Positions 54,410-58,378 of a stretch of DNA of 64,000 nt are shown here, in pieces (positions within the stretch are counted from its first letter, which is position 1; every line of letters begins with the position of its first letter). The DNA is from Robertkochia marina (GTDB lineage: Bacteria > Bacteroidota > Bacteroidia > Flavobacteriales > Flavobacteriaceae). The stretch spans positions 1,302,001 to 1,366,000 of the forward strand of contig NZ_SSMC01000001.1 of NCBI RefSeq assembly GCF_004799345.1, read 5' to 3'. The notes under the pieces were generated by a model. The model had not been told where the DNA came from, did not search any database, and saw only the letters and a program-made list of their open reading frames with translations. A program made the translations under genes and the position numbers.

Positions 54410-56569
54410 ATGAGAAAACTTCGCTACCCTTTTTTGTTCATACTGATCGTATTTTTGATCATTTATTTCACTGCCCTAATAACTCAACCATCCAGGCCGG
54501 ATCTTTCGTCTTATGTTAATAAGGCTTCTGCGTACGAGGTGGAGATCCTTAGAGACAGCTTGGGGGTGCCTCACATTTATGGGGTAAAGGATGCCGATGT
54601 GGCCTTCGGATTGGGATATGCCCAAAGTGAAGATGATTTTCAAACCCTGCAGGATGTGCTTCTTGCCACCAGGGGACTTATTGCTTCCAAATATGGGTAT
54701 ACAGCAGCTAAAACTGATTTCGTAGTTAACTTTATGGGCGTTTGGGATGCCGTCGATAAGAAGTATGAGGTAGAGGTGCCTGATTCGGTGAAGGTGATCG
54801 CAGAGGCCTATGCCGATGGGGTAAATTTATATGCGTCTCAACATCCCGGAGAATGGTCACGCTATTTATTTCCTGTGACCGGAAAGGATATTGTGGCGGG
54901 CTTCACCTTTAAAACGCCCATGTTTTACGGCTTTGACAAAGCCCTGGGTAAGATGCTGGAACCCCGGGAGCCGGAGAGTATGGAAACGACGGGGGAGACC
55001 GCACTATTATGGAATAACACCCCTAAAGTGCCTTTGGGGAGCCAGGGGATAGCCATAGCCCCTCATCGTTCGGAAGATGGTATGACCAGACTGCTGGTTA
55101 ATTCACATCAACCCCTGGAAGGTCCGGTGGCTTGGTATGAGGCCCGGTTGCATTCGGAGGAAGGTTGGAATATGGCCGGGGGTACCTTTCCCGGTTCGCC
55201 CCTGATCATTCACGGTCATAACGATAAGCTGGGATGGGCCAATACGGTCAATAAGCCCGACCTGGTAGACTTTTACAAACTCAAAGTGAATCCTGAGAAC
55301 GAAATGCAATATGAGCTGGATGGGAGATGGGTGGATTTTAAGGAAAAAACAGCAAAAATCCTCGTGAGTTTTCTCGGCCCTGTGCGGTGGACCTTTGACA
55401 AGCGAATTCTGATCTCTGAACATGGGCCGGTGCTGGAAACCGATCACGGATGGTTTGCGACCAAATGGGCAGGTATGGGCGAAGTAAGAACCCTGGAATT
55501 CCTCTTTCGTTTGAACAAGGCCGGCAATAAGGAAGATTTTGAAAGTGCACTTCAAATGAATGCCATGCCAAGCATCAATTACATCTATGCCGATACCGAA
55601 GGGAATATTGGTCATTACTACAATGCCATGTTCCCGAAACGCCTGGATGGAGTTGCATGGAAGGAGGAAGTACCCGGTACAGATGCTACCCTGATCTGGA
55701 GCAAATACCTTCCTTTTGAGATGATGCCGAAAACCGTGAATCCGAAAAGCGGACTGGTATACAATGCCAACAACACCCCATTCTCTGCTACCGATGGAGA
55801 TGATGATGCACAAAAGAACGAGTACCCGGAATTTATGGGACTGGAACAGCAGGAAACCAACCGATCTATGAGAATTGAAGCCATGGCAAAAGGTGACAGT
55901 TTAATTAGCGGGGAAGCCTTGTATACTATCAAATACGATCTTAAATACCATATTGATTATCCTCCTGTTAAACGATTGTATCAATGGCTGGCCCAGGGGG
56001 ACCTTGATGTCATGATGAAGCCTGAATACCGGGAGGCCCGACAGCAACTCAGGGAATGGAACTTAAGCACCGGAAGAGACAATGAAACGGCCCTTTTAGG
56101 AATCCTTACTTTAGATCCGATCATTAAAGAGCCTGACATGTCAGCCGCTGGTTTAAATGATGTCTTTACCTCAGCCGTCGATGCTTTGATTAAAAGGTAT
56201 GGTACAACAAGGATCAAGCTGGGCGAGGTTCAAAGACTAAAAAGGGGAGAGCGGTCCCTGCCCATTTCAGGAGGACCGGATATTCTGAGAGCTGTATATA
56301 CTGATGGGCTGAACGAAAATGGGAACATGCTGGCAAAGGCGGGAGATGGCTTTACCATGTTCGTAGCCTGGGATAGTACCGGGTTAAAAAGCTCTAAGGC
56401 CATTCACCAATACGGATCGGCCAGCAGTATTGAAAACTCTGAACACTACAATGACCAAATGGAGAAATTCGTAAAACATGAATTACGAGATGTTCCATTT
56501 ACCAGGGCAGCCCTTGAAAAGCAGGCAGAGCGGAAGTATCATCCGTTGGATAGGGATGTGGGAATGTAG
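54410..56569 (+). CDS. Penicillin-acylase-family Ntn hydrolase
   Basis: An exported amidase precursor of 719 residues with a hydrophobic N-terminal helix (about 7-25) that is either signal peptide or anchor. The alpha-chain region (about 30-190) contains VPHIYGVKDADVAFGLGYAQSEDDF. A spacer and the self-cleavage site GSQGIAIAP follow; the new N-terminal nucleophile would be Ser211, followed by Gln rather than the usual Asn. The beta chain has PGSPLIIHGHNDKLGWANTVN and YIYADTEGNIGHYY. Family members open amide bonds of penicillins or acyl-homoserine lactones. The natural substrate is unknown. It diverges from a B1 beta-lactamase gene. Confidence 0.88.
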   Translation: MRKLRYPFLFILIVFLIIYFTALITQPSRPDLSSYVNKASAYEVEILRDSLGVPHIYGVKDADVAFGLGYAQSEDDFQTLQDVLLATRGLIASKYGYTAAKTDFVVNFMGVWDAVDKKYEVEVPDSVKVIAEAYADGVNLYASQHPGEWSRYLFPVTGKDIVAGFTFKTPMFYGFDKALGKMLEPREPESMETTGETALLWNNTPKVPLGSQGIAIAPHRSEDGMTRLLVNSHQPLEGPVAWYEARLHSEEGWNMAGGTFPGSPLIIHGHNDKLGWANTVNKPDLVDFYKLKVNPENEMQYELDGRWVDFKEKTAKILVSFLGPVRWTFDKRILISEHGPVLETDHGWFATKWAGMGEVRTLEFLFRLNKAGNKEDFESALQMNAMPSINYIYADTEGNIGHYYNAMFPKRLDGVAWKEEVPGTDATLIWSKYLPFEMMPKTVNPKSGLVYNANNTPFSATDGDDDAQKNEYPEFMGLEQQETNRSMRIEAMAKGDSLISGEALYTIKYDLKYHIDYPPVKRLYQWLAQGDLDVMMKPEYREARQQLREWNLSTGRDNETALLGILTLDPIIKEPDMSAAGLNDVFTSAVDALIKRYGTTRIKLGEVQRLKRGERSLPISGGPDILRAVYTDGLNENGNMLAKAGDGFTMFVAWDSTGLKSSKAIHQYGSASSIENSEHYNDQMEKFVKHELRDVPFTRAALEKQAERKYHPLDRDVGM

Positions 56570-56757
56570 GGATATAGCGATGTAGTAGTATCGGTAAACG
56601 GGTAGATCGGTAAACAGGTAGGCAGGTAGAAGGGGAGATGGAATAATGTTCAAATTCCGAATTCCAAACTAGTCACTCCGTACTTTGTCAAACCTGTCTA
56701 CTGGCAACCAAACTCGTCCCTGAAACCTGCCTGCGGAAGGCAGGCTCGTCCCTCAAA
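56570..56757. repeat. Intergenic repeat mosaic
   Basis: It begins at the stop of the acylase gene with a degenerate period-8 array (units CGGTAAAC, GGGTAGAT, AGGTAGGC; 56591-56636). A CTCGTCCCTGAAAC tract follows, interrupted by the palindrome CCTGCCTGCGGAAGGCAGGC (56726-56745) and resuming as CTCGTCCCTCAAAC. The stop codon of the Cys-rich gene lies inside this last unit. Confidence 0.8.
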
Positions 56758-56901
56758 CTAAAAATCGCTCCTCGTATAGGCTACATCCCGGCAACATTCG
56801 CATTTATTGCATTCGCAAACGTCGCAAGGGCATTCATATTTACTGCAATCTCTGCAGTTACACTTTTTGCAGTCGCAATCTGTACAGACACAATTTCCCA
56901 T
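56758..56901 (-). CDS. Cysteine-rich metallothionein-like small protein
   Basis: A 47-residue protein with 14 cysteines (30 percent). Cysteines stand at 4, 6, 9, 11, 14, 16, 19 and at 24, 26, 29, 31, 34, 36, 37. This makes two seven-Cys halves of the pattern CxCxxCxCxxCxC, split by KYE. Between them lie mostly Asp, Lys, Asn and Glu, and the C-terminus is cysteine-free (RDVAYTRSDF). There is no signal peptide, so it is cytosolic. It is unlike SmtA/BmtA bacterial metallothioneins, which have fewer Cys plus His. It probably binds Zn, Cu(I) or Cd in clusters; that is inference. The reading frame is intact from ATG to TAG. It stands alone among repeats between two plus-strand genes. Confidence 0.8.
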   Translation of the reverse strand: MGNCVCTDCDCKKCNCRDCSKYECPCDVCECNKCECCRDVAYTRSDF

Positions 56902-56999
56902 AACTGTTAGATTTTAGAGCCTAAACAGGTTGGTTGTCAGGAGATTCGGAGTTAAAGTAAAGATAAGAATATTTCAAGTGTGTAACACAAGGGGTGATG

Positions 57000-57250
57000 T
57001 TGAGTCTTTATGATACAGTTTGCGGTTTGCAGATTGCAGTTAGCAGTTAGCAGTTAGCGGTTTGCGGTATACAGTTTATAGTTCGAGGTACGAGCCTGCC
57101 TTCCGCAGGCAGGTTTGAGTTCGCAGGGAGTTATGATTCATGATTCAAACATATAGTTTTTTGTTTTGAGCTCAACCTATCATTCCCTATCTCGTGTTAC
57201 CTGTTACCTGCCTGCCAAGCCGCAGGCATGGTTACCTGTTACTTTTCACT
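57000..57250. repeat. Intergenic repeat mosaic with period-7 arrays
   Basis: A long period-7 array (CAGTTTG, CGGTTTG, CAGATTG, CAGTTAG three times, CGGTTTG; 57014-57086) is followed by the palindrome GCCTGCCTTCCGCAGGCAGG (57094-57113). A second period-7 array (CTGTTAC units, about 57195-57247) is interrupted by CCTGCCTGCCAAGCCGCAGG (57208-57227). No gene is present between 56902 and 57261. Confidence 0.82.
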
Positions 57251-57261
57251 AAAATTATAAT

Positions 57262-58170
57262 ATGAAAACATACTTTTTTGTACTCCTGGTTACTATGTTG
57301 CCTTTACTGTCAACAGCTCAATCTGTAAAGGTTTTTAACGAAATAGCCATCAATGATCCCCTTGAAGCATGTATGGGAAAACTGGAATCTATGGCAGGGT
57401 CAGTAGAATTAATAGCCATAGACAAGCCTGTCTTTCCCCTGGCGGAGAATAAGGAAGACCATCTGATCTGTAAGGAAGTGAAAACGCCAAGAGGAACCAT
57501 AGACAGAATGGTTTTCACTTTTGGCGATAACCAATTGAAATATGTGGTGGCCCGGGGCAATGTGTGGCGGGTATTCACCGAAGGACGCACCGATACTGCA
57601 GAGGCCTATATGGACTATTCGGTTTACTTTGACGATGGATTATTCCTAAACAGAAAGAAAGATATCGCCTGGATCCTGTCGCCCGGAGCTATTCACGCCA
57701 ACCTGTTTACCTGGGAGAATCCCTTGCTGGATGACTCGAAGGATCAAGAAAGTATTTCTGAGGCTACAACCATTCCGGAATTCCTGGCTATGGGAGCCAG
57801 ACTGGAATCCATGGCAGGCCCCATGGAAGAAAACAGCCTTTTTACTTATAAGGAGGAACTGGACGGATCAGACCCTAATGCACAGGTGCAGGTAAATTGT
57901 TTCGGGGTGGATTATCTCGGATTTCCCAGGAAGGTAGAAGCCCGCTTTGGAGATAATAAGCTCAATGTGGTTTGGATCCTTACCGGAAAAGAAGAGGAGG
58001 AACGCATTCGTGAAGCCTTGCTGGCGCAATTCGGAGAACCTGTTTTTGTAAATAACGACTGGGAGATCTATAATAATTGGCAGGTAGGGTTGCGAAAAGA
58101 TAAACCTGAGGTATTACTCATGGAGCAGGAGGTAGGGCTGCAGTATAAGGAGAGTTATTTTAAGCAGTAG
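57262..58170 (+). CDS. Exported protein of unknown function with internal duplication
   Basis: A 302-residue secreted or periplasmic protein; the signal peptide ends LLSTAQ with no lipobox. Two copies of one domain are visible. LEACMGKLESMAGSVE (about 32-47) matches FLAMGARLESMAGPMEEN (about 173-190). MVFTFGDNQLKYVVARG (about 83-99) matches VEARFGDNKLNVVWILTG (about 226-243). I recognise no family. Repeat mosaics flank it on both sides, and a period-8 array starts at its stop codon. Confidence 0.75.
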   Translation: MKTYFFVLLVTMLPLLSTAQSVKVFNEIAINDPLEACMGKLESMAGSVELIAIDKPVFPLAENKEDHLICKEVKTPRGTIDRMVFTFGDNQLKYVVARGNVWRVFTEGRTDTAEAYMDYSVYFDDGLFLNRKKDIAWILSPGAIHANLFTWENPLLDDSKDQESISEATTIPEFLAMGARLESMAGPMEENSLFTYKEELDGSDPNAQVQVNCFGVDYLGFPRKVEARFGDNKLNVVWILTGKEEEERIREALLAQFGEPVFVNNDWEIYNNWQVGLRKDKPEVLLMEQEVGLQYKESYFKQ

Positions 58171-58378
58171 TTGGGTAGACGGGTAGATAGGTAAGCTGGT
58201 AGACAGGTAGGCTGGTAGGTGGGCTCTTCTCTATATTCGGGAGATTGCCACAGCCTGTTTTATCCCGCGCGCCAGCTGGCTCCATCGCTAAAATGGTTCG
58301 CTGAACCATTTCCGAACGCTCGGCCCTGCAAAGACGATTAATTTCAAACTCAAACTCGTTCCTGAAACTCGTCCCTGT
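58168..58378. repeat. Intergenic repeat mosaic
   Basis: A period-8 array (GGGTAGAC, GGGTAGAT, AGGTAAGC, TGGTAGAC, AGGTAGGC, TGGTAGGT) begins at the stop codon of the plus-strand gene. The inverted dispersed element (58239-58337) follows, then a CAAACTCGTTCCTGAAAC tract that ends at the stop codon of the convergent amidohydrolase gene. Confidence 0.85.
58239..58337 (-). repeat. Dispersed element, copy 4, full-length and inverted
   Basis: Plus-strand ends are GGGAGATTGCCACAG and CTGCAAAGACGA, the same ends as the short elements at 36542 and 50765. Its interior, read on the minus strand, is GCCGAGCGTTCGG, the hairpin AATGGTTC/GAACCATT and TTAGCGATGGAGCCAGCTGGCGCGC. It joins the CGAGCGT type and the GAGATTGCCAC type into one family. 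Confidence 0.75.

Follow-up and report, generated by a model that had tools for sequence, protein, structure and literature searches.

Several bacterial metallothioneins are made on demand, such as SmtA regulated by SmtB, NmtA regulated by AzuR and MymT regulated by RicR, and in each case a small cysteine-rich metal buffer is produced under a metal sensor. SmtB is the SmtB/ArsR-type regulator of SmtA. AzuR and RicR are described, in the literature excerpts available, as metallothionein sensors of the SmtB/ArsR or CsoR type. The locus reported here would be similar in this arrangement; however, SmtA, NmtA and MymT had no sequence match to its peptide, and their regulators are not activating sigma factors, as the regulator of our peptide would be. 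The peptide is similar to bacterial metallothioneins in its small size, its CxC and CxxC motifs and its share of cysteine (14 of 37 core residues), but the window peptide has no histidine, while histidine ligands are common in bacterial metallothioneins according to an excerpt of PMC10612145. An excerpt of a 2024 paper (PMC11599972) says that only three bacterial metallothioneins have been investigated so far.

On the side of the regulator, CorE of Myxococcus carries CxC in its linker and responds to copper through a C-terminal extension rich in Cys, according to the available parts of two papers (PMC3107203, PMC8999054). CorE and CorE2 of Myxococcus xanthus, once classed as ECF44 and at present as ECF238, are described there as having linker cysteines, a Cys-bearing C-terminal extension and no linked anti-sigma gene, which is the same in the sigma factor usually accompanying our peptide. 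By contrast, the linker motif of CorE is CxC and its invariant residues are Cys181, 184, 192 and 194, whereas the partner sigma factor has CC in the linker and CC-x15-CxxC at the C-terminus. The targets of CorE given in these excerpts are an oxidase and a copper ATPase, while the apparent target of the partner sigma factor is a metallothionein-like peptide. In the part available of a 2011 survey (PMC3107203), the 21 CRD factors included none from Bacteroidetes. The nearest named family of the partner sigma factor was SigZ (TIGR02959 / PRK09637), matched along almost its entire length with 145-149 bits, which is under both curated SigZ cut-offs (168.65 and 212); the sigma factor of locus L074 scored 145.1 bits on TIGR02959. 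The one Bacillota SigZ locus examined (Priestia, L115) had no Cys-rich ORF nearby.

The third comparison is with the polycysteine leader ORFs of mycobacteria, reportedly described by Canestrari in 2020 (cited in PMC13236596). They are also short Cys-rich ORFs in front of another gene; unlike them, our peptide is also present in genomes that have no such downstream gene, and its spacing is fixed over 14 Cys. Among the literature matches listed, no title or beginning of an abstract mentioned a Bacteroidota metallothionein or any metallothionein controlled by an ECF sigma factor, and the combination of this peptide family with a sigma factor, a promoter and a hairpin had no match in the literature searched.

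The fourteen-cysteine peptide and its family

The window, that is the whole stretch of 64,000 nucleotides analysed here, belongs to a Robertkochia genome (G000). On its minus strand, at 56758..56901, lies a gene for a metallothionein-like peptide of 47 residues plus stop codon (sequence MGNCVCTDCDCKKCNCRDCSKYECPCDVCECNKCECCRDVAYTRSDF), and the claim of an intact frame with 14 Cys at this place was borne out. The cysteines are arranged in two halves of seven each, C.C..C.C..C.C..C and C.C..C.C..C.CC. The initial annotation had read them as CxCxxCxCxxCxC twice, which is right to within one Cys, but the second half terminates in CC. Residues 1-37 represent the conserved core of the family, M..C.C..C.C..C.C..C....C.C..C.C..C.CC (56791..56901, minus strand, model positions 1-37 by alignment), and residues 38-47 are an extension. 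Among 55 distinct peptides, this ten-residue C-terminal extension was present in the three Robertkochia copies only; the other extensions had 0-4 residues.

Genes of 37 codons are easily overlooked. When ATG-started ORFs of at most 90 residues with at least seven Cys and at least 20% Cys were collected, the window peptide was the sole one within the window, and no further ORF of that size and Cys content was found in the 42 named loci, which add up to 946 kb when both strands are counted. The window peptide matched no family of Pfam and NCBIfam at E up to 10. Its sequence matches in PDB included no metallothionein, and the single match (E 7.9) was irrelevant; a further comparison with PDB gave no match at all.

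With an E limit of 1, a single-sequence search of 99 genomes gave matches in nine. Five of these were clear (E below 1e-6, the window's own included); the loci L006-L010 from this search (E 0.005-0.43) had no peptide of the 14-Cys kind. With a profile, the peptide was found in 25 of 397 genomes of the family and in 8 of 395 genomes of the phylum. A scan of named genomes confirmed 42 loci from 119 pattern matches. They belonged to Aequorivita, Arenibacter, Maribacter, Mesonia, Psychroflexus, Salegentibacter, Zeaxanthinibacter, Polaribacter, Gillisia and others, and also to Echinicola, Algoriphagus, Roseivirga and Portibacter, which we take to be genera outside the family of the window genome.

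The 55 distinct peptides came from the first 76 loci, and all of them had 14 Cys. For the named loci this invariance is partly due to selection, because the 42 loci were found via two peptide patterns containing Cys; profile searches without that limit agree, except for L095. The spacing C.C..C.C..C.C..C....C.C..C.C..C.CC was identical in 53 of the 55, and L032 and L034 differ by a one-residue indel. The initial annotation had named frameshifts or lost Cys in homologues as refuting it, and with these counts that test came out in its favour; of three distant homologues in the phylum, L093 and L094 also have 14 Cys and L095 has 12. Length was 37 residues in 40 of the 55 peptides. Among the 53 with identical spacing, residues other than Cys were also conserved (T7 in 51, N15 in 49, K13 in 46). 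Histidine occurred in two of the 55, once in the core (L065) and once in the extension (R. marina), and the distant L094 also has one.

Among the three Robertkochia copies of the gene, pS was 0.76-0.92 versus pN of 0.11-0.19; no dN/dS ratio is given for them because the synonymous sites are saturated. The Cys codons of 53 distinct peptides (742 in total) were 462 TGT and 280 TGC, showing free drift between both. Conservation, TGT/TGC drift and pS much higher than pN are in agreement with the earlier claim that the even cysteine spacing over the frame is hard to explain by chance in noncoding DNA, and the comparison of synonymous with nonsynonymous change, which had been suggested as a check, also supported the gene. 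A chance noncoding ORF at 56758-56901 is ruled out by conservation together with synonymous drift. Judging from these patterns, the 14-Cys ORF is a real and strongly conserved coding gene, and by their sequences the 14-Cys peptides are a Bacteroidota family which has no Pfam or NCBIfam model. The earlier proposal of a candidate new metallothionein is plausible and was right in that the gene is intact, conserved, Cys-dense and without such a model; it had overlooked the usual sigma-factor partner, the promoter and the hairpin.

Partner sigma factor, promoter and hairpin

A SigZ-like ECF sigma gene (about 175 residues) was located directly downstream of the peptide gene, on the same strand, in 40 of the 42 named loci; the two loci without it are those of Robertkochia. 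In the profile search, the sigma gene was next to the peptide in 22 of 25 family genomes (21 by pattern, L032 by eye), with G000 (the window), G003 and G402 as the genomes without it, and the pair was present in 6 of 8 phylum genomes. The one sigma factor scanned for domains, that of L074, had sigma2 (PF04542) and sigma4 (PF08281). The linker between sigma2 and sigma4 carried CC in 39 of 40 sigma factors and the C-terminus carried CC...CxxC in 39 of 40, both being present in 38; L073 has CF in place of the linker CC, and L066 is without the last Cys. All six Cys were invariant in an alignment of 24 of the 40 sigma factors, with L066 and L073 outside it. An AlphaFold model of the sigma factor had a pLDDT of 77.6 and a pTM of 0.45, with only 66 and 51 for the C-terminal blocks, a confidence too low to place the metal site. 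The partner sigma factor probably senses metal and switches the peptide gene on.

No other neighbour than the sigma gene was conserved beside the peptide in the named loci. The 61 nearest neighbours matched 79 Pfam families, and among the 25 of these listed no metal-related family was recurrent; one possible metal link was SBF, with two neighbours. The SBF family includes arsenite exporters. In five Arenibacter loci (L045:6752-7498, L063, L064, L075 and L076), a glyoxalase-like protein family was found behind the peptide-sigma pair.

The motif GTATC-N17-[GA]TCT[ACT]C was present in 54 of the 55 distinct upstream regions linked to a sigma gene, in the stretch that begins 44 to 55 bases ahead of the start codon of the peptide. 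The 55th region (L030) had a one-base variant, GTCACC, with a good profile score, and the distant pairs L093 and L095 had GAATC-N17-ATCTAC, with GAATC replacing GTATC. The motif was found in none of the four sigma-less upstream regions of L001, L002, L003 and L025, and also not in a fifth, L094. This joint absence of sigma gene and motif in the orphans argues that the motif is the promoter of the sigma factor. A vestigial ECF promoter in the orphans was rejected, since the profile scores of L001, L002, L003 and L025 were equalled by 153, 235, 105 and 47 of 300 shuffles, respectively.

In the 946 kb of named loci the motif had 37 matches, every one at the peptide. A stricter motif gave 13 matches in 16 whole genomes, ten at the peptide operon and three elsewhere, and the reversed-pattern control gave 4. 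It was found at the peptide in 10 of 12 sigma-bearing genomes and had no match in the four sigma-less genomes; the slightly deviating promoters of G415 and G057 were not picked up at the peptide. These counts argue for a near-dedicated promoter of the partner sigma factor, with almost one target. A wider regulon was considered and rejected, because the three extra strict matches do not exceed the reversed control and two of them are inside coding sequences; the third (L121) is about 180 bases before a lipoprotein-like ORF.

Between the two genes, behind the stop codon of the peptide, a terminator-like hairpin was recognized by eye in 41 of 52 distinct regions; its stem has some ten pairs and is in many cases followed by a T-rich stretch. 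The family hairpin was not seen in the other 11 (L019, L022, L027, L034, L041, L056, L057, L067, L068, L069 and L071). A strict test for a perfect stem plus T-run was positive in 19 of 52 regions versus 1 of 1240 shuffled ones. Covariation was examined in an alignment of 36 of the 52 regions, chosen for a visible hairpin, with the hairpin-bearing L018, L024, L055, L062 and L064 omitted. In these 36, 98.0% of cells were paired and eight of ten pairs had compensatory change, and none of 500 shuffles was as high. Cells changed on both sides numbered 41 versus 7.4 in shuffles; sliding abolished the signal, and RNAalifold agreed. On the simplest reading, the hairpin would be a leaky terminator which gives much peptide mRNA and little sigma mRNA.

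Orphan peptides and other SigZ-like loci

Five genomes with the peptide (G000, G001, G003, G402 and G509) had a best sigma match of 67.8-69.9 bits, which is what unrelated ECF factors score; in four genomes with the pair the match was 272-291 bits. The best matches in two genomes that yielded no peptide, G002 and G004, were 72.3 and 71.3 bits. The peptides without sigma occur in three genera, and the promoter of the sigma factor is also missing in all five such genomes examined. With an E limit of 0.01, tblastn found no sigma remnant in the 64-kb window, L035, L036 and L094. A weak sigma-like match (45 residues, E 0.002) was obtained at L025:146-280; it lies on the other strand, with about 1.2 kb between it and the orphan peptide gene. 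The sigma gene was probably lost in G509, because G564 and G615 of the same genus have the pair, and we infer loss for the orphans in general.

In the window, the sequence TATCTTTA at 56958..56965 (minus strand) is a candidate housekeeping -7 element. The consensus of this element in Bacteroidota is TAnnTTTG. TATCTTT[AG] is common to four of five orphans, in whose upstream regions it stands 54 to 66 bases before the start; none was found in the fifth, L094 (G509). Neither the sigma gene nor its promoter was found in the window species, and a housekeeping promoter probably drives the peptide gene there. Directly past its stop codon is the palindrome GCCTGCCTTCCGCAGGC (56729..56745, minus strand), which may be a substitute 3' hairpin of the mRNA for the usual hairpin of the family.

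The flanking genes, a penicillin amidase family gene (54410..56569, plus strand, PF01804 E 8.5e-104) and a gene for 302 residues without Pfam match at E up to 1 (57262..58170, plus strand), are outside the system. The nearest named peptide loci to the window are those of R. marina (L035, 77% identity) and R. sediminum (L036, 75%). By eye, the R. marina gene is at the same place, with like penicillin amidase and 302-residue genes, and the R. sediminum gene is elsewhere, adjoining an apparent toxin-antitoxin-like pair.

Repeats are found around the window gene. An inverted repeat of 45 nt, 91% complementary (56720-56764 / 57075-57119), surrounds the gene and its upstream region, and its core palindrome GCCTGCCNNCCGCAGGC has six copies in G000 and two in G001. 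Short tandem arrays with units of 7, 8 and 16 bases (CAGTTTG; GGTAGACA-like) lie near the peptide and gene ends at 57016-57077, 56585-56628 and 58174-58218. In R. sediminum an array with copies 14 bases apart is upstream of the peptide gene. A mobile cassette bounded by the inverted repeats was rejected in view of these palindrome copies and the R. marina and R. sediminum genes without flanking arms. The location among repeats, which had been offered as one reason why the gene would be missed, looks incidental.

Sigma factors of this type (E up to 1e-35) were present in 18 of 296 phylum genomes, and 13 of the 18 loci were beside a Cys-rich ORF (6 + 3 + 4, by eye). Six are the 14-Cys pair. Three (L102, L103 and L110) have upstream a different peptide of 33 or 34 residues, C.C.C..C..G.C..CTCENC[TS]C..CNC, and four (L106, L107, L108 and L112) have yet other Cys-rich peptides downstream of the sigma gene. 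In the remaining five (L104, L105, L109, L111 and L113) no Cys-rich ORF was visible by eye near the sigma gene. The sigma factors of L104, L105, L109 and L111 have C-terminal Cys runs (CCCC in L104 and L109). A second set of eight SigZ-like loci had the upstream 33-residue kind at L078 and L081, the 14-Cys pair at L083, doubtful small ORFs at L077 and L080, and none at L079, L082 and L084.

Sister promoters (GYRTC...GTCT) were recognized on genes of the other Cys-rich peptides and of SigZ-like sigma factors. In the four loci with the peptide downstream, the sister promoter is on both genes with the same spacer within a locus (16 in three, 17 in the fourth, by eye). Sister promoters at both genes in loci of differing layout tie sigma factor, promoter and Cys-rich product together. 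It is conceivable, though we consider it doubtful, that metal-sensing SigZ-type sigma factors form a general class in Bacteroidota, each with a regulon of essentially one tiny metallothionein. Such a class would comprise at least three kinds of Cys-rich peptide, placed upstream or downstream under sister promoters, and the peptide would strip metal from the sigma cysteines, being product and off-switch at once.

Tiny CC-rich ORFs (NNCCDSGCCGGSGCC; DDCCDGTCCGGNTSGCC) were also noticed at L080:1249-1344 and L114:5106, about 2 kb or less from SigZ-like sigma genes, and the one of them on a Hymenobacter plasmid adjoins arsC and an ACR3 arsenite exporter gene. They may represent a further kind of peptide that binds metals or metalloids.

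Proposed mechanism and its alternatives

We consider it probable that the peptide buffers metal in the cytoplasm through its thiolates, like a metallothionein, and that it is usually the main product of a dedicated metal-sensing ECF sigma factor and an orphan in the window species. This reading builds on conservation, linkage of the two genes, promoter co-occurrence and joint absence, hairpin covariation and near-invariant Cys in both partners, from which we infer metal binding by the peptide, the kind of metal, activation of the sigma factor by metal, and termination with read-through. An excess soft metal ion (copper, zinc or cadmium) would be bound by the six sigma cysteines, CC in the linker and CC plus CxxC at the C-terminus. 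The metal-bound sigma factor would be active, and RNA polymerase would start at the single GTATC-N17-GTCT promoter. Most transcripts would stop at the hairpin past the 37-codon gene, giving much peptide, and read-through would give a little sigma factor. The peptide would then chelate the metal and the response would subside. Fourteen thiolates in CxC and CxxC motifs, with no His in the window peptide, would be appropriate for clustering either four to five divalent ions or eight to ten Cu(I).

A different explanation of the same layout is that the ORF is a cis-acting polycysteine leader. Ribosomes stalling at Cys codons on scarce charged Cys-tRNA would refold the hairpin and let transcription or translation go into the sigma gene (attenuation), and the peptide itself would be functionless. 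The ORF precedes a regulator gene, with the hairpin past its stop codon in 41 of 52 regions, and polycysteine leader ORFs are reported in mycobacteria. But the five orphan genomes have the 14-Cys peptide without such a sigma factor above the unrelated-ECF level, and four other SigZ-like loci have the peptide gene downstream of the sigma gene with its own promoter copy. The fixed spacing and T7, N15 and K13 are kept although codon counting does not need them, and 11 of 52 gaps have no hairpin. We regard a leader as unlikely.

The peptide could instead be a regulator of its sigma factor, namely a metal- or redox-dependent anti-sigma factor or a metal donor, without a buffering role. ECF factors are often co-transcribed with an anti-sigma factor, both partners are Cys-rich and no other neighbour is conserved. 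Against this, orphan peptides exist in three genera without the sigma factor, those of Robertkochia are under purifying selection, and CorE-type factors are without a linked anti-sigma gene in the available part of PMC3107203. We find it quite improbable. Orphans in three genera, from which the sigma promoter is gone as well, argue that the peptide works in trans and is neither leader nor anti-sigma factor.

Least likely is a role of the peptide in thiol redox or iron-sulphur chemistry (as an oxidant or electrophile scavenger, or a store of sulphur or clusters) under a sigma factor answering Cys oxidation and not metal: cysteine pairs can sense oxidation and the Arenibacter glyoxalase-like family would fit, but CxC and CxxC at fixed distances along the whole peptide are suited to metal-thiolate clusters, there is otherwise little conservation of neighbours, and studied sigma factors of similar layout sense Cu, Cd or Zn in the excerpts available.

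Our interpretation, in which an activating sigma factor with cysteines controls a buffer similar to metallothioneins, is plausible from the sequences. If it is true, a large phylum would gain a metal-buffering system, and an activating sigma factor would join the known regulators of bacterial metallothioneins. There would also be a sigma regulon of almost a single gene, with its promoter already defined, which could be used as a metal reporter.
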